Origin: a virus
IMG/VR virus record: IMGVR_UViG_3300013119_000118
Location: 1-31,884 of that record
DNA length: 31,884 nt
Strand: one strand, 5' to 3'
Below, in pieces: positions 941-19,944 of the stretch. A model generated the notes under the pieces. That model saw only the letters and a program-made list of their open reading frames with translations, ran no database searches and was not told the DNA's origin. Each line of letters opens with the position of its first letter. Position 1 is the first letter of the stretch. A program made the position numbers and the translations under genes.

Positions 941-3900
941 ATGAGCTTCCAATTATCAAAACAACAGAGAGTAAAAGAAATATTAAAGTGTGGTAAAGAT
1001 CCGTCATACTTTCTTAAAACATACGCACGTATCTCGCATCCCCTTCATGGGTTGATACTATTCGATACTTACGACTTCCAAGATGAATTACTTAAAGACT
1101 TTAATGATTACCGATTTAATGTAATCTTAAAAGCCCGACAGTTAGGTATCTCAACCATTTCGGCTGGATACATTGTCTGGCTTATGTTATTCCACAGAGA
1201 TAAAGCAGTTCTTGTAATGGCAACAAAGTTTGCCACAGCCGGAAACCTTGTTAAAAAAGTCAAGAACATAATGAGAAATGTCCCTGACTGGATGAAGATC
1301 GCTTCTATTGAAGTAGACAATAGAAATTCATTTGAACTATCTAACGGTTCTTCTATTAAGGCGACATCTACATCTGGAGATGCTGGTCGTTCTGAGGCAT
1401 TGTCGCTTTTGGTTTTAGATGAGGCTGCCCATATTGAAAACCTTGAGGAGCTTTGGACAGGTCTTTATCCGACACTATCTTGTATTACTGGGGATACGCT
1501 TGTTTTAACTTCCAATGGGCCACGACGAATTGAAGATTTTCACATCGACAAACAGATTGGTGATTATTTTGAGATTAACAATTTGGAAGTCTGGGGCAAG
1601 AAAGGAGTCGAAAAGGTATCTCACGGCTACGTCTCTCCAGAAAGTGACACCCTAAAAATCACAACCGCTCATGGGCTTCAATTGGAAGTAACCTACAAGC
1701 ACCCTCTTTACAAACTCGCTTGCTCTGGCGGTGAGATGACACAAGCACATGATCTTAAGATAGATGATGCTCTGAGAGTTGATGTCGGGATGGACGTTTT
1801 TGGCACACAGCAAAATGTTGGCCAATATCCGATCACTAAGGATTTTGCCTATATGCTCGGCGGCTTTATTGCCGAGGGCTGGATAACTGGCACCAACGCA
1901 AGAGGCAATGGCAATACAATTTGGATTTCCAACACAGACGATGAGTTCAGGAGCGTATTTCTACAAAACAATACAGTAAAGCCCTTCATTCCAGATTTAT
2001 CTGCCCCACATAAGATACGCTGTTCGTCTGTTGAGCTGGCTGACTTAATGGCTGAGGCTGGAGTGGACAAGAAGTGGAAGTGTGACACAAAGCAGACGCC
2101 AGCGGCAATATTTGTGCTCCCCAAAGAAGAGCAGATGAGTTACCTATCTGGGCTATTTGACGGCGATGGATCTGTGACAACACGAGGAATAGTGTTAAGT
2201 TCAACAAGCCACAAGCTTCTTAGAGAGACTCAGCAACTTCTGTTGAATATGGGAATTGTTTCGAACATCACCAAGATTAATCGAGAGAAGGTTTTAGAGC
2301 GAGAGAGAAAAAGCGGAAGACTATTACCACAGGGTAAAAGGCTTCAATCATTAAGGGAGGCTTGGACATTAACTGTCCCTCGTTCATATTTTGGCAAATT
2401 TGCTGATGAAATAGGGTTTAGAATTGGAAGAAAACAGAAAAGGCTTGTAGAAATGTCCGAGCTTTATAAACAAGGCGAGGGTAAGTGTGAGACGGTACCG
2501 GTTAAGGAAATTAAAACTACAATAGAAAAACTCATCAGCACTAGCGGCAAGAGTAAGAGGTGGTTCCGAGAACAAGGAATTAGACTTGACAAGTGTTTGG
2601 ATAAAAACTGGAAAAAGAGGAGCGTTAATTACGAGTGGCTTTTCAGATTGAAAACTGTTTTCGATACGAACGATTTATCCCTTTCAAAAGAACATAGACA
2701 TTTCTTTTCAGAGATGCTTGATGTAAGGTGCTTTTGGGATGAAATAGTATCAATCGAAAAGTCAACCAATAAGACATATGATTTTACGGTACCAAGTACA
2801 CACTCCTTTTTGCAAAATGGCATCTTGGGGAGTAATACTGGTGGACGCTGTATTGCTCTCTCTTGTGTGACAAAAGATACCTTTATTTTTACTGACAAAG
2901 GCATTAAAGAGGTTTCTGATTTTATCGACGAGAAACAAAGTGGTGGATACGAAATTGAAGAGTATTCTATTCTTGGCAGAAACACTTCGCGCCAAGGCGT
3001 CTTGTTTCACAATAATGGCAAAGTAAAGACAAGAAGAATAAAAACTTGCAACACCTATCTTGAAGGCTCAATGAATCACAAGTTATGGGCATACTCAGAA
3101 AAGAAAGGATACGACTGGCATCGACTGGATGAGATGTCAGAGGGTGACTATATTTCTGTTCAATATGGAATGGATTTGTGGGGCAACAACGACAACGTGT
3201 CAGATTTTGCACCACTAGTCACAAAATCACACAAGAATATCTTCACAACAAAGACAATAACTCCCGACATTGCTTATGTCTTGGGAGTATATCTTGCAGA
3301 AGGTTCAGTCTATAAAAATAAAAATAAGAACGGGGATTGCGTTGGCGGTATGACGACATTCACTTGCGGAGATGATCTGACAGATAACTTGGAATCCATA
3401 GGTCTAATCGTTTCTAAAACAGATAAGTTTCATCACTGTTGTTCCTCAAAGACATTTGTTGAATTTTTAGAACACCTCGGATTTGATATATCTCGACATG
3501 CTCCTCAAAAGATTATCCCATCGCGATTGCTGGAAATGAGCCGAGAAAACATTATTGCGCTCCTACAAGGTATATTTGATGGCGATGGATATTCTCGCTC
3601 CGATAGGGGAGAGGTGGGCATAGGCTTATCGTCTTTGAGAATGATCGAACAAATACGAATTATCCTCAACAACCTAGGCATACTCACAGAGTATAAAAAA
3701 TACGAAACTCCACCAACGAAGTTAGTAAATGTGCCTTCAACACAGCATCGCTTATCATTAAACAAAGAGGAATCTTTAAAATTTTATGATACTGTTGGAT
3801 TTAGATTCAACAGAAAACAAGAGAATAAAAAGGTTTTATTGGAGAGCAATTTGTGCCGCTCAAATCCAAAGGACATAATTCCAAATTCAGTAGATGTAAT

Positions 3901-5245
3901 GAAGGAGATGTTCAAAATTTACCCAAAAGGAACTTGGAGTTTGTCGAAGTATCATGATCTTAACATAAGTGGTATCGTGAACAATAAAACAAAATATAAG
4001 ACAAATAATGTTTCTCGCTCGAATGTCATTAAAATGCTAAACATCGTGAGAGATGAACTTCCTGCTGAAACGAGAGAAACACTTGAGCGCAACATATCCC
4101 CAAACCTAAAATGGTGCGAGATAAAAGAAATAAAAGAATCGGAAGCAGAAACGTATGACTTTTCTTTACCAGACAATGGAGAGTTTTGGGATCATTCGGT
4201 GATCTATAATGGCATTTTGGGCCACCAGACCCCAAATGGTGTCGGTAACTGGTTCCATAAGACTTGCACTGATTCAGAAGCCGGAGTGAACAACTTTCAT
4301 TTAACAAACTTGCCATGGGACGTTCATCCTGATCGAGATGAAGGATGGTTTGACAAAGAAACAAAAAACATGTCTAAGAGACAAATTGCACAAGAGCTTG
4401 AGTGCAGCTTCAATACGTCTGGCGAGACTGTTATAGAGCCAGAAGATTTAGAGTGGATGTTGTCTAACGTGAAGGAACCAAAGTATCGTACTGGGTTCGA
4501 CCGAAACTTTTGGATCTGGGAAGACTATGATCCAACTTGTAATTATTTAATGTCAGCAGATGTCTCTAGGGGCGATGGCGCTGATTTCTCTACTTTCCAC
4601 ATTATTAAACTTGAAACATTAGAAGTTGTTGGAGAGTATCAAGGTAAGCCTACAATAGATATGTACGCCAATATGCTCAATCAGATTGGCCGAGAGTTCG
4701 GCAATGCAATGTTGGTAGTAGAGAATAATAATATTGGCTTTTCTGTTCTAGATAAGCTAGTTGAACTTGATTACCCTAACGTTTATTTTTCTGTAAAATC
4801 AACACACCAATATGTTGAACAATATCAGGCAGAAAATATGAACTCAGCGGTACCAGGATTTACTACTTCGATGAAGACTCGTCCTCTTATAATTGCCAAG
4901 TTTGAAGAGTTTATCAGAAATAAACTAATTAAGATATATTCTTCTCGGGTGATAAACGAGATGAAAACCTTTATTTGGAGAAATGGTAAGCCACAGGCCA
5001 TGAAAGGCTATAATGATGATTTAATAATGGCATTAGCTATAGGGTGCTGGGTAAGAGATACTGCTCTACAAGCAAGCGCCAGAGACTTAAATTATCAAAA
5101 AGCCTTTGCAGATGCCATAATAACGTCAAACACAACCGTGAATACAAGAATAAGTGGCCAATTGGGCTACAAAAAAGATAACATATTTGATAAAATGTCA
5201 GAAGCACAGAAGATGTACGAACAATACAAATGGATTATAAAGTGA
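941..5245 (+). CDS. terL: Terminase large subunit (gp17-like), interrupted by two inteins
   Basis: This is the ATP-driven DNA packaging motor and headful nuclease. The 1434-residue precursor contains two inteins (residues 181-632 and 642-1096); removing them leaves 527 residues, close to T4-type terminases (T4 gp17 is 610). The ATPase half has a deviant Walker A, 'LKARQLGIST', with the lysine shifted to the front, and a Walker B, 'LLVLDEAAHI' (Asp160, Glu161). The rejoined host sequence reads 'YPTLS-TGGRCIALS-TPNG', matching the ATPase coupling motif of gp17. The RNase H-fold nuclease half follows, with likely metal ligands Asp1207 (SADVSRGDG), Glu1261 (VVENNNIG) and Asp1359/1360 (YNDDLIMAL). 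Start ATG 941 has a weak AAGAG site upstream. No small terminase gene is visible in the window. Confidence 0.97.
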   Translation: MSFQLSKQQRVKEILKCGKDPSYFLKTYARISHPLHGLILFDTYDFQDELLKDFNDYRFNVILKARQLGISTISAGYIVWLMLFHRDKAVLVMATKFATAGNLVKKVKNIMRNVPDWMKIASIEVDNRNSFELSNGSSIKATSTSGDAGRSEALSLLVLDEAAHIENLEELWTGLYPTLSCITGDTLVLTSNGPRRIEDFHIDKQIGDYFEINNLEVWGKKGVEKVSHGYVSPESDTLKITTAHGLQLEVTYKHPLYKLACSGGEMTQAHDLKIDDALRVDVGMDVFGTQQNVGQYPITKDFAYMLGGFIAEGWITGTNARGNGNTIWISNTDDEFRSVFLQNNTVKPFIPDLSAPHKIRCSSVELADLMAEAGVDKKWKCDTKQTPAAIFVLPKEEQMSYLSGLFDGDGSVTTRGIVLSSTSHKLLRETQQLLLNMGIVSNITKINREKVLERERKSGRLLPQGKRLQSLREAWTLTVPRSYFGKFADEIGFRIGRKQKRLVEMSELYKQGEGKCETVPVKEIKTTIEKLISTSGKSKRWFREQGIRLDKCLDKNWKKRSVNYEWLFRLKTVFDTNDLSLSKEHRHFFSEMLDVRCFWDEIVSIEKSTNKTYDFTVPSTHSFLQNGILGSNTGGRCIALSCVTKDTFIFTDKGIKEVSDFIDEKQSGGYEIEEYSILGRNTSRQGVLFHNNGKVKTRRIKTCNTYLEGSMNHKLWAYSEKKGYDWHRLDEMSEGDYISVQYGMDLWGNNDNVSDFAPLVTKSHKNIFTTKTITPDIAYVLGVYLAEGSVYKNKNKNGDCVGGMTTFTCGDDLTDNLESIGLIVSKTDKFHHCCSSKTFVEFLEHLGFDISRHAPQKIIPSRLLEMSRENIIALLQGIFDGDGYSRSDRGEVGIGLSSLRMIEQIRIILNNLGILTEYKKYETPPTKLVNVPSTQHRLSLNKEESLKFYDTVGFRFNRKQENKKVLLESNLCRSNPKDIIPNSVDVMKEMFKIYPKGTWSLSKYHDLNISGIVNNKTKYKTNNVSRSNVIKMLNIVRDELPAETRETLERNISPNLKWCEIKEIKESEAETYDFSLPDNGEFWDHSVIYNGILGHQTPNGVGNWFHKTCTDSEAGVNNFHLTNLPWDVHPDRDEGWFDKETKNMSKRQIAQELECSFNTSGETVIEPEDLEWMLSNVKEPKYRTGFDRNFWIWEDYDPTCNYLMSADVSRGDGADFSTFHIIKLETLEVVGEYQGKPTIDMYANMLNQIGREFGNAMLVVENNNIGFSVLDKLVELDYPNVYFSVKSTHQYVEQYQAENMNSAVPGFTTSMKTRPLIIAKFEEFIRNKLIKIYSSRVINEMKTFIWRNGKPQAMKGYNDDLIMALAIGCWVRDTALQASARDLNYQKAFADAIITSNTTVNTRISGQLGYKKDNIFDKMSEAQKMYEQYKWIIK
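1481..2836 (+). mobile_element. Intein 1 of terminase, with LAGLIDADG homing endonuclease
   Basis: This is a 452-residue in-frame intein between host residues Ser180 and Thr633. The N-terminal splicing block starts CITGDTLVLTSNG. The block B TxxH motif is TYKH (intein His74). The C-terminal block is 'YDFTVPSTHSFLQNGILGSN' followed by Thr as the +1 nucleophile. Two LAGLIDADG motifs are present: LGGFIAEG (Glu132) and LSGLFDGDG (Asp229), so both endonuclease acids are kept. A basic helical region lies between the second motif and the C-terminal splicing block and could add DNA contacts. The penultimate residue is Ser rather than the usual His. The insertion lies just after the Walker B segment of the ATPase. 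Confidence 0.95.
2864..4228 (+). mobile_element. Intein 2 of terminase, with LAGLIDADG homing endonuclease
   Basis: This 455-residue intein begins at precursor Cys642 (CVTKDTFIFTDKG) and ends 'VIYNGILGHQ' before Thr1097. Block B is the less usual SMNH (intein His72). The LAGLIDADG motifs are LGVYLAEG (Glu146) and LQGIFDGDG (Asp241), so the endonuclease looks intact. The final residue is Gln instead of Asn, a known variant that still allows C-terminal cyclisation. It sits immediately before the STPNG coupling motif and only nine host codons (2837-2863) after intein 1. The segment GFRFNRKQ resembles GFRIGRKQ in intein 1, which suggests related endonuclease domains, but overall similarity between the two is low by eye. 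Confidence 0.95.
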
Positions 5246-5254
5246 GATTTTTAA

Positions 5255-7243
5255 ATGCCCCCATATAGAAAACAAGGAAAGAACCCAGCCAACAGTCAGT
5301 CAGAACTCTTTAAAGCTCTGACCAAGCTTTTTTCAGGCCCATTGGTGAGCTATCGCTCTCAGTCTGGCCGCCGACTCCGAAGACAACATTTAGATAAATT
5401 TTCTTCAAGATTTAAATCTGCCTCTGGGCAGCAGTTTAAGAAGTCTATTCATAGCCCTTTGAATAATCTTGCTACTGAGGCCATAGCCAACCAGAGGCGC
5501 ACAGAGCGTTACGTTGACTTTGATCAGATGGAGTATGAGCCTATCATTGCATCTGCTATAGACATCTATGCAGATGAGATGACCACCCATTCAGATTTGC
5601 GCTCAATGCTAAACATCAAGTGCCCCAATGAAGAAATAAAAGCTGTATTGACTGTGTTATATGAGCAAGTTTTGAATGTACAATACAATTTATTTGGCTG
5701 GTCGAGGACGATGTGTAAGTATGGAGACTTCTTCTTATATCTTGACATTGATGACAAGTATGGAATCAAGTCGGTTATTGCTCTCCCTCCCGTAGAAATT
5801 GAGAGACTTGAGGGCAAAGACACTACCAACCCCAACTATGTGCAATATCAATGGAACACAGCGGGAATGACATTTGAGAACTGGCAAGTGTGTCACTTTA
5901 GGGTTTTAGGAAATGATAAATATTCCCCCTACGGTACATCAGTACTAGAGCCAGCACGTCGCATCTGGAGACAACTAACGCTCATGGAAGATGCTATGAT
6001 GGCGTATCGTATTGTTCGTTCATCTGAGCGGAGAGTGTTTAAGATAGACGTTGGAGCTATTCCGCCACAAGACGTAGAACAATACATGCACAAAATAACA
6101 TCCCAATTGAAAAGGCATACGGTTGTTGACCCATCGAATGGTCGCGTAGATCTTAGATATAACCCTATGTCTATTGAAGAAGATTATTTCATTCCAGTCA
6201 GGCAAGGTTCAGCCACTGATATCCAAAATTTGGCCGGTGGTCAAAACACTACACAAATAGATGATATTAAATACTTACGTGATAAATTGTTTGCGGCAAT
6301 AAAAGTCCCACAATCATATCTTGTGATGGGAGAAGATGCTGCTGAAGACAAGGCGACACTTGCCCAAAAAGATATCAGATTTGCTAGGACTATCCAGAGA
6401 CTACAAAGAGTTATTATTTCAGAATTGACTAAGATAGGAATCATTCATCTTTATACGCTTGGCTTTAGAGGTGAGGATCTGTTGGCATTCTCATTACACT
6501 TAAATAATCCCTCCAAGATAGCCGAACTACAAGAAATAGAGCACTGGAAGGCAAAGTTTGACATTGCTGCATCTGCAACAGAAGGCTTTTTCTCTAGGCG
6601 ATGGGTCTCGGAACACATTTTTGGAATGTCACATGATGAGTTTACCAGAAACCAAAGAGAGATATATTTTGATCGCAAGCAGGACAGCACACTACAGGCT
6701 GTTGCCGAAGCATCTGCTGTGGCTGGTTCCGGTGGTCTCGGTGGAGAAGATTTTGCTGACGACGGGTTTGGCAACGCCGAAGCCCCTTTCGGCCCAGAAG
6801 AGTTTGGCCCAGAAGAGATGCCAGCCGGTGAAGCAGATATCTCTACGCCGCCAGAGGAGCCCGAAAGCTCATTACTGGCAATACCACCTGGCTCTAGACC
6901 GACCTCTCGAATAGCGCCAGAAAATAAAGAAGGCCACCTTACACCAGGAGCTAAAGGAAAGCGATATTCTTTTAAAAAGACAGACAGGAAGAAATCTGGT
7001 GCTCGTAGTAGGTCTCTGTCTAGACAGGCTGGCAAAATGTTACCCTCGGACATCCTACCAGGCGCAAAAGAACTATCTACTATAGGTTCTGGCATTTTCA
7101 ACGAACAACAATCTAGTTATAACTCAAGGGAACAAGTAGAAGAAGATAGACTATTTGAGGTCAATAACTCTATACGAGAACTGATAAATGATCTAAGAGA
7201 CAACGACAATAAGTTAAAGGAAACAGAAATTAATGAGAATTAA
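5255..7243 (+). CDS. 20: Portal vertex protein (gp20-like)
   Basis: The portal forms the dodecameric ring at the unique head vertex through which the terminase pumps DNA and to which the neck attaches. The 662-residue protein has a basic N-terminus, then the portal core: 'TERYVDFDQMEYEPIIASA' near residue 85, the DIYADEMT helix, 'FGWSRTMCKYGDFFLYLDID', a PPVEIERLEG segment, and the 'KVPQSYLVMGED' crown/clip region near residue 360. The C-terminal 170 or so residues are low-complexity, Gly/Pro/Glu-rich and then basic, making the protein longer than T4 gp20 (524). The gene starts 9 bp after the terminase stop with a poor ribosome site, so translational coupling to terL is likely. It overlaps the next gene by 11 bp. 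Confidence 0.93.
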   Translation: MPPYRKQGKNPANSQSELFKALTKLFSGPLVSYRSQSGRRLRRQHLDKFSSRFKSASGQQFKKSIHSPLNNLATEAIANQRRTERYVDFDQMEYEPIIASAIDIYADEMTTHSDLRSMLNIKCPNEEIKAVLTVLYEQVLNVQYNLFGWSRTMCKYGDFFLYLDIDDKYGIKSVIALPPVEIERLEGKDTTNPNYVQYQWNTAGMTFENWQVCHFRVLGNDKYSPYGTSVLEPARRIWRQLTLMEDAMMAYRIVRSSERRVFKIDVGAIPPQDVEQYMHKITSQLKRHTVVDPSNGRVDLRYNPMSIEEDYFIPVRQGSATDIQNLAGGQNTTQIDDIKYLRDKLFAAIKVPQSYLVMGEDAAEDKATLAQKDIRFARTIQRLQRVIISELTKIGIIHLYTLGFRGEDLLAFSLHLNNPSKIAELQEIEHWKAKFDIAASATEGFFSRRWVSEHIFGMSHDEFTRNQREIYFDRKQDSTLQAVAEASAVAGSGGLGGEDFADDGFGNAEAPFGPEEFGPEEMPAGEADISTPPEEPESSLLAIPPGSRPTSRIAPENKEGHLTPGAKGKRYSFKKTDRKKSGARSRSLSRQAGKMLPSDILPGAKELSTIGSGIFNEQQSSYNSREQVEEDRLFEVNNSIRELINDLRDNDNKLKETEINEN

Positions 7244-8906: not shown

Positions 8907-8964
8907 TTTTTGGACAGACAAATGGACGCTTCAGCCAGTACGCAGATGTTGTAAAGGAAGTTGA
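8899..8964 (+). CDS. Possible 21-codon micro-ORF upstream of the protease
   Basis: An ATG at 8899 with AGGAGA at 8885-8890 opens a 21-codon frame (MNNFWTDKWTLQPVRRCCKG plus one Ser) that ends at TGA 8962-8964, two bases before the likely GTG start of the protease. It overlaps the end of the membrane protein gene by 8 bp. The good ribosome site and the stop next to the protease start suggest either a real small peptide with two adjacent cysteines or a leader that couples translation of gene 21. Length alone gives no support, so confidence is low. Confidence 0.35.
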   Translation: MNNFWTDKWTLQPVRRCCKGS

Positions 8965-8966
8965 CT

Positions 8967-10610
8967 GTGAGTAAAGTTTTATTAAGAGAGTACTATTCGC
9001 TATGCGAAGGTGGAATATGCAAAGACTTGTTGACCGAAGAAGAAAAAAGATATGTTGCCGAAGGCGGCATGATCCTATCAGGCATTATGCAAAAAGCAGA
9101 CACACAAAACGGTAATGGTCGAGTCTATCCCTACAAGACACTGCTCCGAGAGGTAGAGAATTATAAGAAGCTAGTTAAAGAAAACAGAGCGTTAGGAGAG
9201 TGTGTGGACTCAGAGACGCAAATAATGACAGAAGACGGCTGGAAATATATCCCAGACATCTCAGACAACGAAAAGATATTCACTCTTAATTCTGCCACAA
9301 ACGAAATGGAATTACAAGAGATTACTCGAAAAGTAGTTTTGCCATTTGATGGTGAGATGCTTCACTTTACCAACGATAGGAGCATCGATATGATGCTGAC
9401 TCCCACTCATAATGTTTTATATTATACTCGCAATGGAAGTCCTGTCAAGATCCTTGCAGACGCTGTAGCGACAATGCTTGAGAACAATAGTGGCGATATA
9501 TCTCACTCTTCCCTTAAAAGAGGGAAAGCAAATTGGGTGGGAAACAGTATCTCCACTTATCGACTTGGGCAGAAAGAAATAAACGCAGAGGACTTTATGG
9601 CCTTTATGGGCATCTATCTGTCAGAGGGCTGTGTTTCATCAAGTGTAAACAAAGTGCAAATAACTCAAAAGAAAAAAGAAGAGACAGCCGAGATTGAAGA
9701 ACTGTGTAATCGACTGCCTTTTAAATTTAACAAGACTGTTCGCAGTAACGGCACAACTGATTTCGTCACTAGTGATAATGAACTTGTTTCATTTTTACGA
9801 CCACTTGGAAAGAGTCACGAGAAATATGTTCCAAAAGAAATCAAGAATCTGAGCCCCAACTTGCTAACCATTTTGCTTGATTGGATGCTCAAGGGTGATG
9901 GTCGCAATCGTAAGAACAGAAAGGGCGAAGTCATGAGAGAACTTTATACTACATCGAAACAGATGGCAGATGACTTCTCAGAGATATTTTACAAACTAGG
10001 GGCTGCCGCCACAATCAACGAACGGGAACAAAAAGATAGAGTTATCGAGGGTAGAACCGTACTAGCTAAAAACTCAAGACTATTATATATCGTCAGTGAG
10101 AGCACTGCTAGAGATGCTTATTTGTCATCTCGCTTTGTCAAAGTGGAAAGAGTGAAACATACAGGCGAAGTCTATTGTGTCTCTGTGCCCAACAAAACTT
10201 GGATGATGAAACGAAATGGTAGTGTGTGTTGGACTTCTAACTGTGACCACCCAGAAGACTCCGTGATTAACCTCAAGAATGCATCTCACCTTGTAACTGA
10301 TATTTGGATGGAAGGCAAAGATGTAATGGGCAAGATGAAAATACTTGATACACCATCTGGCAAAATACTCCAAGAGCTAGTGCGTGGCGGCGTTCAGTTG
10401 GGCATCTCATCACGAGGAATGGGCTCAGTTAGTGAATCACAAGGCCAAACGATGGTTGAAGAAGACTTTCAACTGATTTGTTTCGATATGGTCAGCGAAC
10501 CATCAACTCCAGGTGCATTTATGATGCGAGAGGCAAAAGAATTTAAAAATGAAGTATTTACTAGCGCCGACAGGATAAATAGATTATTGAATGAGGTATT
10601 AGATGAATAA
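8967..10610 (+). CDS. 21: Prohead core protease (gp21-like), interrupted by an intein
   Basis: This is the serine protease that matures the prohead by cutting scaffold and capsid proteins. The rejoined host protein is about 200 residues, like T4 gp21 (212). It contains the conserved 'GE-CDHPEDS' with the catalytic His, 'LVRGGVQLGISSRGMGSV' with the catalytic Ser region, and a C-terminal 'MVSEPSTPGAFM'. A 347-residue intein lies between Glu and Cys of the GE-CDHP motif. I place the start at GTG 8967 because GGAAG ends six bases before it. The in-frame TTG at 8961 abuts that site and is less likely. The stop overlaps the start of the next gene by 8 bp. Confidence 0.93.
   Translation: MSKVLLREYYSLCEGGICKDLLTEEEKRYVAEGGMILSGIMQKADTQNGNGRVYPYKTLLREVENYKKLVKENRALGECVDSETQIMTEDGWKYIPDISDNEKIFTLNSATNEMELQEITRKVVLPFDGEMLHFTNDRSIDMMLTPTHNVLYYTRNGSPVKILADAVATMLENNSGDISHSSLKRGKANWVGNSISTYRLGQKEINAEDFMAFMGIYLSEGCVSSSVNKVQITQKKKEETAEIEELCNRLPFKFNKTVRSNGTTDFVTSDNELVSFLRPLGKSHEKYVPKEIKNLSPNLLTILLDWMLKGDGRNRKNRKGEVMRELYTTSKQMADDFSEIFYKLGAAATINEREQKDRVIEGRTVLAKNSRLLYIVSESTARDAYLSSRFVKVERVKHTGEVYCVSVPNKTWMMKRNGSVCWTSNCDHPEDSVINLKNASHLVTDIWMEGKDVMGKMKILDTPSGKILQELVRGGVQLGISSRGMGSVSESQGQTMVEEDFQLICFDMVSEPSTPGAFMMREAKEFKNEVFTSADRINRLLNEVLDE
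9201..10241 (+). mobile_element. Intein 3, in the prohead protease, with LAGLIDADG homing endonuclease
   Basis: The intein has 347 residues. The N-terminal block is CVDSETQIMTEDG, block B is TPTH (intein His70), and the C-terminal block is 'GEVYCVSVPNKTWMMKRNGS' followed by VCWTSN, with Cys as +1 nucleophile. The endonuclease motifs are MGIYLSEG (Glu142) and DWMLKGDG (Asp233), so both catalytic acids remain. It is about 100 residues shorter than the terminase inteins, mainly lacking the basic region after the second motif. The penultimate residue is Ser, as in intein 1. The insertion is two residues ahead of the protease's catalytic His, so unspliced protein should be inactive. Confidence 0.94.
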
Positions 10611-18513: not shown

Positions 18514-19944
18514 GTGACAACTATCTGCGCTATTTGTAATGAAACGCTCAAATCTACACGAGCACTTGCGACACACCTCCAACACCGTCACAAAATAAAA
18601 TCAAAAGACTACACCATTAAATACATCCATAACAGCACACAGCCAATGTGTGTAGAGTGCGGTAGCGAAACCAGATACGTGTCGTTCATGTTCAAGAAGT
18701 ACTGTAAGTCACATGCGAATCTGGCAGCAGCAGAAGCTGGCAGAATAGGTGGAAAGATTAAAACAACTTGGAACAAAGGTCACACAAAGGAGACACTAAC
18801 AAAACTTAGAGAGTGTTCAAGGAAATATACTGGTACCGGAAATCCGTTCCACGGCAAAACACACACCTCCACAGCAATAGACAAAATGACAGCAAACAGT
18901 CGCATCGATAAAGAGACTTTATTGACGAGACTCAAAGAAAGAGAGAATGATTGGCACTTTGATTATACCAACATCGACTACGAATCACGACAAAAGCAAT
19001 ATATCTCTTGTAAATGCCGCAAGTGCAACTCCATTTGTGAGAGAACCCTTCAAACTTTAGAGCGAGGCAGCCTCTGTCACGAATGTTATCCGATCAATAA
19101 ATACTCAAAACCAGAACGAGATTTAAGAAAGATCATCGCTGAAACAGGAATTGAAAACTTTCAGTCCAACACTCGCTCCATCATCACTCCACAAGAGCTC
19201 GACATACATTTACCAGAACACAAATTCGCTATTGAGTACAACGGCTTATATTGGCACTCAGAAGAACGTAAAGGCAAGACATATCATTTTGATAAAACAA
19301 ACAGCTGCAGAGAACAAGACATTCAACTCTTTCACATCTTCTCAGACGAGTGGCGAGAAAAGCAAGAGATAATAGAGTCGATGATTCGCCAGCGAATAGG
19401 TAAGTCAAATGAGAGAATCTTTGCCCGCAAATGTGTTGCAAGAATCGTGCCAAGAACAGACTCAAAAACCTTCTTCAACAAAACTCACATATCGGGCAAC
19501 ACACCCAGCAAGATCACATTTGGCCTATATCACCATGACACTCTCGTGATGGCACTCTCTCTGCGAACATCTTTCCATCGCAAATACCGAGAAGCAAAGA
19601 TGATTGAAATTGCTCGCCTTTCATCGGAACTCGACACAATTGTCGTCGGCGGACTTTCAAAACTTCTAAAGCAAGCCAAAAAGTGGGCGAGACAAGAAAA
19701 ATACAATGGCATTCTAACCTATGCCGACAGAAGATTCGGCGAGGGTAAAGGATATTTAAAAACAGGCTTCACTCTTATAGGCGAAACCAAAGCAGACTAT
19801 TGGTATACAGACGGCAGAACTAGATTCAACAGATTTACATATCGTGCTCAACCAAACAAGCCAGAGAAAGAAGTAGCAAAGGAAGCAGGGGTGTTTAAGA
19901 TATACGGTTGCGGTTCTAACATTTATGAGATGCTTTTGTCATAG
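18514..19944 (+). CDS. Free-standing EDxHD (Vsr-like) homing endonuclease
   Basis: The 476-residue product has an N-terminal C2H2-type zinc finger (CAIC...HLQHRH, residues 5-26), a second Cys pair (CVEC, 46-49), and a NUMOD3-like helix element (NPFHGKTHT, near 110). A four-Cys element follows (CKCRKC and CHEC, 166-191). The nuclease core is 'ITPQELDIHLPEHKFAIEYN' then GLYWHSE (224-250), with HFDK near 259 and HIFSDEW near 275; this matches the EDxHD homing endonucleases related to Vsr (the I-Bth0305I type). The C-terminal half has 'VVGGLSKLL' and 'TYADRRFGEGKGYLKTGF', also usual in that family. The GTG start has AAGGAG six bases ahead. It cuts an intron-less or allelic target to spread itself; the target is probably the capsid/neck junction where it sits. 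Confidence 0.85.
   Translation: MTTICAICNETLKSTRALATHLQHRHKIKSKDYTIKYIHNSTQPMCVECGSETRYVSFMFKKYCKSHANLAAAEAGRIGGKIKTTWNKGHTKETLTKLRECSRKYTGTGNPFHGKTHTSTAIDKMTANSRIDKETLLTRLKERENDWHFDYTNIDYESRQKQYISCKCRKCNSICERTLQTLERGSLCHECYPINKYSKPERDLRKIIAETGIENFQSNTRSIITPQELDIHLPEHKFAIEYNGLYWHSEERKGKTYHFDKTNSCREQDIQLFHIFSDEWREKQEIIESMIRQRIGKSNERIFARKCVARIVPRTDSKTFFNKTHISGNTPSKITFGLYHHDTLVMALSLRTSFHRKYREAKMIEIARLSSELDTIVVGGLSKLLKQAKKWARQEKYNGILTYADRRFGEGKGYLKTGFTLIGETKADYWYTDGRTRFNRFTYRAQPNKPEKEVAKEAGVFKIYGCGSNIYEMLLS

Follow-up and report, generated by a model that had tools for sequence, protein, structure and literature searches.

A T4-type phage terminase gene with two inteins nine codons apart, and recurrence of the pair in other phages

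Inteins in terminase large subunits (TerL) are already known, as are TerL proteins with two inteins (in Microcystis phage Mic1 and a crAss-like phage), inteins at one of the two positions described below, and neighbouring inteins elsewhere. In the accessible part of the study by Kelley et al. 2016 (PMC5050341), the mycobacteriophage TerL inteins include ones at the C-motif (TerL6-f) and at the P-loop (TerL1-a and -b); five representatives splice, and two LAGLIDADG-bearing ones cut empty alleles. The TerL1-a and -b sites are only one residue apart, but they belong to a different phage group, and that part of the study reports no joint filling of the two in one protein. Outside phages, the haloarchaeal MCM-a and MCM-d inteins are two LAGLIDADG elements at neighbouring sites of an essential DNA-motor gene, with singles and doubles coexisting. 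That work (PMC10643990), the one experimental study on neighbouring inteins that our search turned up, reports very inefficient co-homing in Haloferax with two active neighbouring nucleases; when both are active they get in each other's way, and doubles are expected to form via single alleles.

The window analysed here (the whole stretch of 31,884 nucleotides, from IMG/VR record IMGVR_UViG_3300013119_000118) contains one uninterrupted frame of 1434 codons (941–5245, plus strand) for a T4-type terminase large subunit (gp17), with inteins at two points that we call site a (intein 1, or intein a) and site b (intein 2, or intein b), as listed in Table 1. A previous sequence-only reading had proposed two full inteins of 452 and 455 residues, each with both LAGLIDADG acids, nine host codons apart and together making up 907 of the 1434 precursor residues. 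The exact coordinates and splice residues bear this out: all four acids are present, cutting the frame at the splice points gives the same 907 residues and leaves an extein of 527 aa, and the junctions on either side of the nine-codon spacer are matched by 79 of 79 informative near relatives.

Table 1. Features of the interrupted terminase gene (window coordinates)
Feature	Coordinates	Strand	Description
N-extein	941..1480	+	180 aa, gp17-type TerL; Walker A-type region; Walker B LVLDEAA; ends ...YPTLS
Intein a	1481..2836	+	452 aa, residues 181-632; C1...GSN / +1 Thr; HINT + two-motif LAGLIDADG
First LAGLIDADG acid, intein a	1874..1876	+	E132 in MLGGFIAEG
Second LAGLIDADG acid, intein a	2165..2167	+	D229 in YLSGLFDGDG
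Middle extein TGGRCIALS	2837..2863	+	nine codons (27 bp) separating the two insertion points
Intein b	2864..4228	+	455 aa, residues 642-1096; C1...GHQ / +1 Thr of TPNG; HINT + two-motif LAGLIDADG
First LAGLIDADG acid, intein b	3299..3301	+	E146 in VLGVYLAEG
Second LAGLIDADG acid, intein b	3584..3586	+	D241 in LLQGIFDGDG
C-extein	4229..5245	+	338 aa + stop; coupling motif TPNG; nuclease domain (SADVSRGDG)

Both sites adjoin the ATPase coupling motif. Site b is, by description, the same kind of position, in the coupling motif, as that of mycobacteriophage TerL6-f (PMC5050341). Mic1 (PMC7156551; L103) also has two inteins in one TerL, the ATPase-domain one being at site b (TG/CVAPNT...SHN/TPKG); its second intein, however, is far off in the nuclease domain, whereas the two in the window are nine codons apart, and its b intein falls outside the b clade of the window and ends in HN instead of HQ. 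The crAss-like delta-group TerL (PMC7886860) likewise has two inteins, but they are described as Hint-Hop inteins, and the gene that holds them has TAG codons in frame. The atypical split inteins AceL-TerL and Cat-TerL (PMC11766414) differ from the two described here in both site and element. The haloarchaeal MCM-a/d system is an archaeal helicase for which nuclease activity and poor co-homing were observed experimentally (PMC10643990), whereas the present system belongs to phages and is known from sequence.

Alignment of the extein-only sequence with gp17 homologues, suggested in the sequence-only reading as a check on the junctions, restored conserved terminase sequence at both. The match to T4 gp17 (PDB 3ezk) crossed the two junctions (E 1.5e-42, residues 9–465), and the Pfam Terminase_6N match (2.1e-9) covered residues 62–262 of the extein-only protein as against 62–173 of the interrupted one. 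The ATPase and nuclease domains are homologous to those of gp17 and continuous once the inteins are removed.

Searches of Pfam/NCBIfam found LAGLIDADG_3 in intein a (1.5e-18) and intein b (2.6e-12), together with a Pfam Intein_splicing match in each that was below the gathering cut-off. C1 and the +1 Thr of class 1 inteins are present in both, and block B (T/S-x-x-H) reads TYKH (71–74) in intein a and SMNH (69–72) in intein b. Intein a ends in Ser-Asn, with Ser where a penultimate His is usual, and intein b in His-Gln; Gln-terminated and non-His C-termini are known variants, and the GHQ ending occurs in all ten inteins of the b clade. The AlphaFold models had pLDDT values of 73.5 (intein a) and 91.1 (intein b). 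The models matched solved HINT+LAGLIDADG inteins such as TliVMA, PI-PfuI and PI-SceI, which are complete with HINT and endonuclease domains. By these features both elements look like ordinary class 1 inteins of the LAGLIDADG kind; they are only 32.6% identical to each other.

Relatives of the window gene were retrieved with the N-extein only, a query that ends upstream of site a and hence does not select for site status. Eighty were returned (89–94% identical), and both sites were empty in 79 of the 79 that reach them, the joints reading TGGRC[IV]A[LI]S and then TP, exactly as predicted; no single-intein allele was found among these 79. Because they are uninterrupted at exactly both points, a chance explanation of the inteins is excluded. 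Nucleotide conservation at the insertion sites in these relatives is not unusual (percentiles 0.45 and 0.50).

The window being a metagenomic contig, one might suspect an assembly artefact, or a dead terminase gene that is not spliced. We give this next to no credence. The frame of 1434 codons is unbroken and has all splice residues in place; over 5,908 bases there is no difference from a second contig, IMGVR_UViG_3300007510_000389 (L084), which reaches 44 bases further upstream. This contig may share the source population and is therefore not fully independent, but the same arrangement also occurs in unrelated contigs and in near-identical contig pairs, which together with L084 makes an artefact very unlikely.

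The two inteins also recur. Whereas the sequence-only reading implied a singular case, a search for both insertion sites filled together, which it had proposed, found the pair in at least five other phage sequences. With a pattern for the start of the site-a intein we found G002, a 69-kb contig whose terminase has inteins at the same two points as the window, with the same C-terminal Ser-Asn and His-Gln (identity to the window: N-extein 49.7%, C-extein 40.9%, intein a 51.0%, intein b 51.5%). A second pattern, independent of intein family, asked for a terminal Asn followed by TGG, the remainder of the middle segment and a Cys; it selects doubles and returned four further ones: G013 (an identical stretch is in G007), G009 (also in G008), G011 and G010 (also in G006, a contig cut off within intein b). 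The spacing between the inteins is exactly nine residues in every double. Including the window, six distinct double sequences are spread over five separate positions in the gp17 tree, requiring five separate changes in the extein tree.

Some pattern matches were rejected: L087, as well as L113 and L114 (genome_contigs), were chance matches, and L111 matched the double pattern solely because its extein reads N-TGG. Single-sequence searches with intein 1 or intein 2 gave the identical contig as the only match. The terminase as an intein target is already known; what is new is the pair of co-occupied TerL sites nine codons apart and its recurrence, neither of which was reported in the papers found by our open-access literature search.

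Alleles with site b filled and site a empty were found by an alignment search with intein 2 (L095, L097, L098/L099, L100/L101 and L102), and L111 is a further one, as is isolate Mic1. No a-only allele was found in a search that was biased, as it required a YPTxSC-like context, while the broad pattern picked out doubles. When four a-type inteins served as queries, no site-a intein from a cultured phage was among the matches listed; these were inteins of helicases, polymerases and RecA, together with those of Mic1 (at site b) and Perkons (at Walker A).

Apart from that of Mic1, the site-b inteins form one clade (support 100/99) with the same insertion point, S/TP[NR]G. Within it, the b inteins of doubles do not group as a single clade (AU p 1.4e-126), implying more than one gain or loss of the double state. 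Intein b of G013 groups with those of the b-only L097, L100 and L102, and the exteins group likewise; in this well-supported group the extein relatives share b without a, so that entry into or exit from the double state was stepwise in this case. The site-a inteins comprise the window/G002 type and a second type, inserted at the same point in six sequences; a single clade of site-a inteins was neither supported nor rejected (AU p 0.41). The a inteins of the window and G002 are sisters (100/100), while the grouping of their b inteins is weak (83/81 and 53/66). Over five doubles, the correlation between a and b identities was not significant (r 0.47, p 0.17). One catalytic nuclease acid each has been lost from both inteins of G009 and from intein a of G010, so full mobility has probably been lost in some doubles.

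Several of the terminases examined carry further insertions. In L095, the TerL frame has intein b at 5001–6362, and its Walker A-type motif is interrupted by another intein (SRQ/CLPEDT...THN/TGLS). At L102:3173–6559, the terminase has at least three insertions, namely a Walker B mini-intein, intein b and, within the nuclease domain, the start of another (YIV/CLPSGES) that is cut by the contig end. In L108 (TerL on the minus strand, inteins 4657–7152), the nuclease domain holds a third intein (HDD/CLKKGT...VHN/CIMAMG) besides a and b. Each of the latter has a substitution at one LAGLIDADG acid (AGG in a, GNG in b), and the two nucleases may therefore be inactive. At L115:1588–7728, DNA that is also within the 368-kb contig L106, two genes encode the terminase. 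A short intein fragment at Walker B (LDEC/CEKSTVV) terminates the N part, and the second gene starts with an intein C part (...SSN/CAFIEK) and also carries inteins a and b; between them lies a 482-aa ORF (DUF7487, weakly TnsA-like nuclease). This split intein matches the engineered CatC (4.6e-12), with a similar short-N split (PMC11766414).

The window phage has a third intein, of 347 aa (9201–10241, in ORF 8961–10610), in its gp21-type prohead protease (LGE/CVDSET...TSN/CDHPEDS). Across this point gp21 is uninterrupted in 24 loci, most of which are closely related to the window; L116 has a related intein in gp21, inserted some five residues later (DHPE/CKRVGT...TGN/SSVVNL). Immediately following the gene for the gp23 capsid protein, a 476-aa ORF (18514–19944) with an N-terminal zinc-finger-like stretch has, by eye, the look of a Vsr-like free-standing homing endonuclease in the segment LDIHLPEHKFAIEYNGLYWHSE...FHIFSDEW; Pfam gave only a weak ROS_MUCR match, and no match was present in the fetched loci.

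In established intein chemistry, C1, the block B T/S-x-x-H, a terminal Asn or Gln and a +1 Thr predict independent excision at each junction. We consider it very probable that the gene carries two separate class 1 inteins, with intact-looking LAGLIDADG nucleases, at neighbouring homing sites 27 bp apart, and that the precursor is spliced twice to a 527-aa terminase. The Ser before the terminal Asn of intein a and the terminal Gln of intein b speak against this reading, although G002 has both. Each HINT domain would probably act at its own junction; if both inteins splice, YPTLS-TGGRCIALS-TPNG would be restored, and the predicted ligated junction of the mature terminase is YPTLSTGGRCIALSTPNG. 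The low identity of the inteins makes mis-pairing of their halves less likely. Both nucleases would be expected to cut empty alleles. For enzymes of this class, two footprints of about 24 bp would just fit into this spacing without overlap, and longer ones would share bases. The double state would arise stepwise via single-intein alleles, the single state seen being b. With both inteins present, one break at either site could copy the two together, since 27 bp presumably lies well inside the repair tract.

Ordered or conditional splicing might instead serve to time the packaging motor. The location of both sites beside the coupling motif, and the regulatory roles proposed for TerL inteins (PMC7156551; PMC5050341), are in keeping with such a gate, which we nevertheless find very improbable given the sporadic distribution of the inteins, the 79 near relatives that lack them and the decay of nuclease acids in two other double phages.

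In the gp17 tree the window double is nested among 71 empty alleles (supporting forks with SH-aLRT of about 81–94, several of them modest), so the pair was probably gained in the clade of the window, a gain being simpler than repeated precise double loss. Such losses are what would be needed, many times over, had the pair been ancestral to these terminases. Intein pairings do partly track the extein tree (G009 with G011, and G013_b with inteins from those contigs to which its extein is related), and G002 possibly stands beside the window clade (64/91); on the other hand, intein a of the window is 51% identical to that of G002 and 33% to those of G010 or G013, even though the N-exteins are about equally distant. 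Ancestry with loss is, in our judgement, quite improbable.

As compared by sequence, intein a of the window is clearly G002-like and intein b weakly so. Joint transfer from a G002-like donor is possible. That both inteins were received together in this way, as a composite that either endonuclease mobilises, is conceivable if somewhat unlikely. Their near-equal divergence from the G002 inteins, the sister relationship described above, the lack of single-intein alleles among the 79 near relatives and of a-only alleles in the biased search would all fit, and, in phages, nucleases of introns reportedly mobilise neighbours that are inactive (PMC10643990). Yet b-only alleles are common, the b inteins of doubles are scattered, L095_b, which has no a intein beside it, is equally close to that of the window (51.3%), and co-homing of the Haloferax double inteins was very poor (PMC10643990). 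Nor was donor flank detected beside the inserts: codon-window identity between the window and its 71 empty relatives showed no dip or peak at the sites, in a test of low power because synonymous sites are near saturation. A more general proposal, that the two sites are coupled into one mobile unit in which one break at either copies both, so that they spread jointly, either nuclease is free to decay and short spacing is selected, seems to us unlikely; the acids lost in G009 and G010 fit it and are no proof of it.

The arrangement is a natural test of two selfish elements sharing one vital gene, that of the DNA-packaging motor. Inteins crowd into the ATPase domain of the T4-type terminase, with Walker A, Walker B, a and b all used as insertion sites, which makes it a dense hotspot. 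A single phage gene with empty, b-only and a+b alleles, its sites separated by 27 bp and its recombination different in style from the archaeal one, would permit a direct test of co-homing versus mutual interference. It would equally allow one to ask whether a pair of HINT domains separated by nine residues can fold and splice independently of each other.
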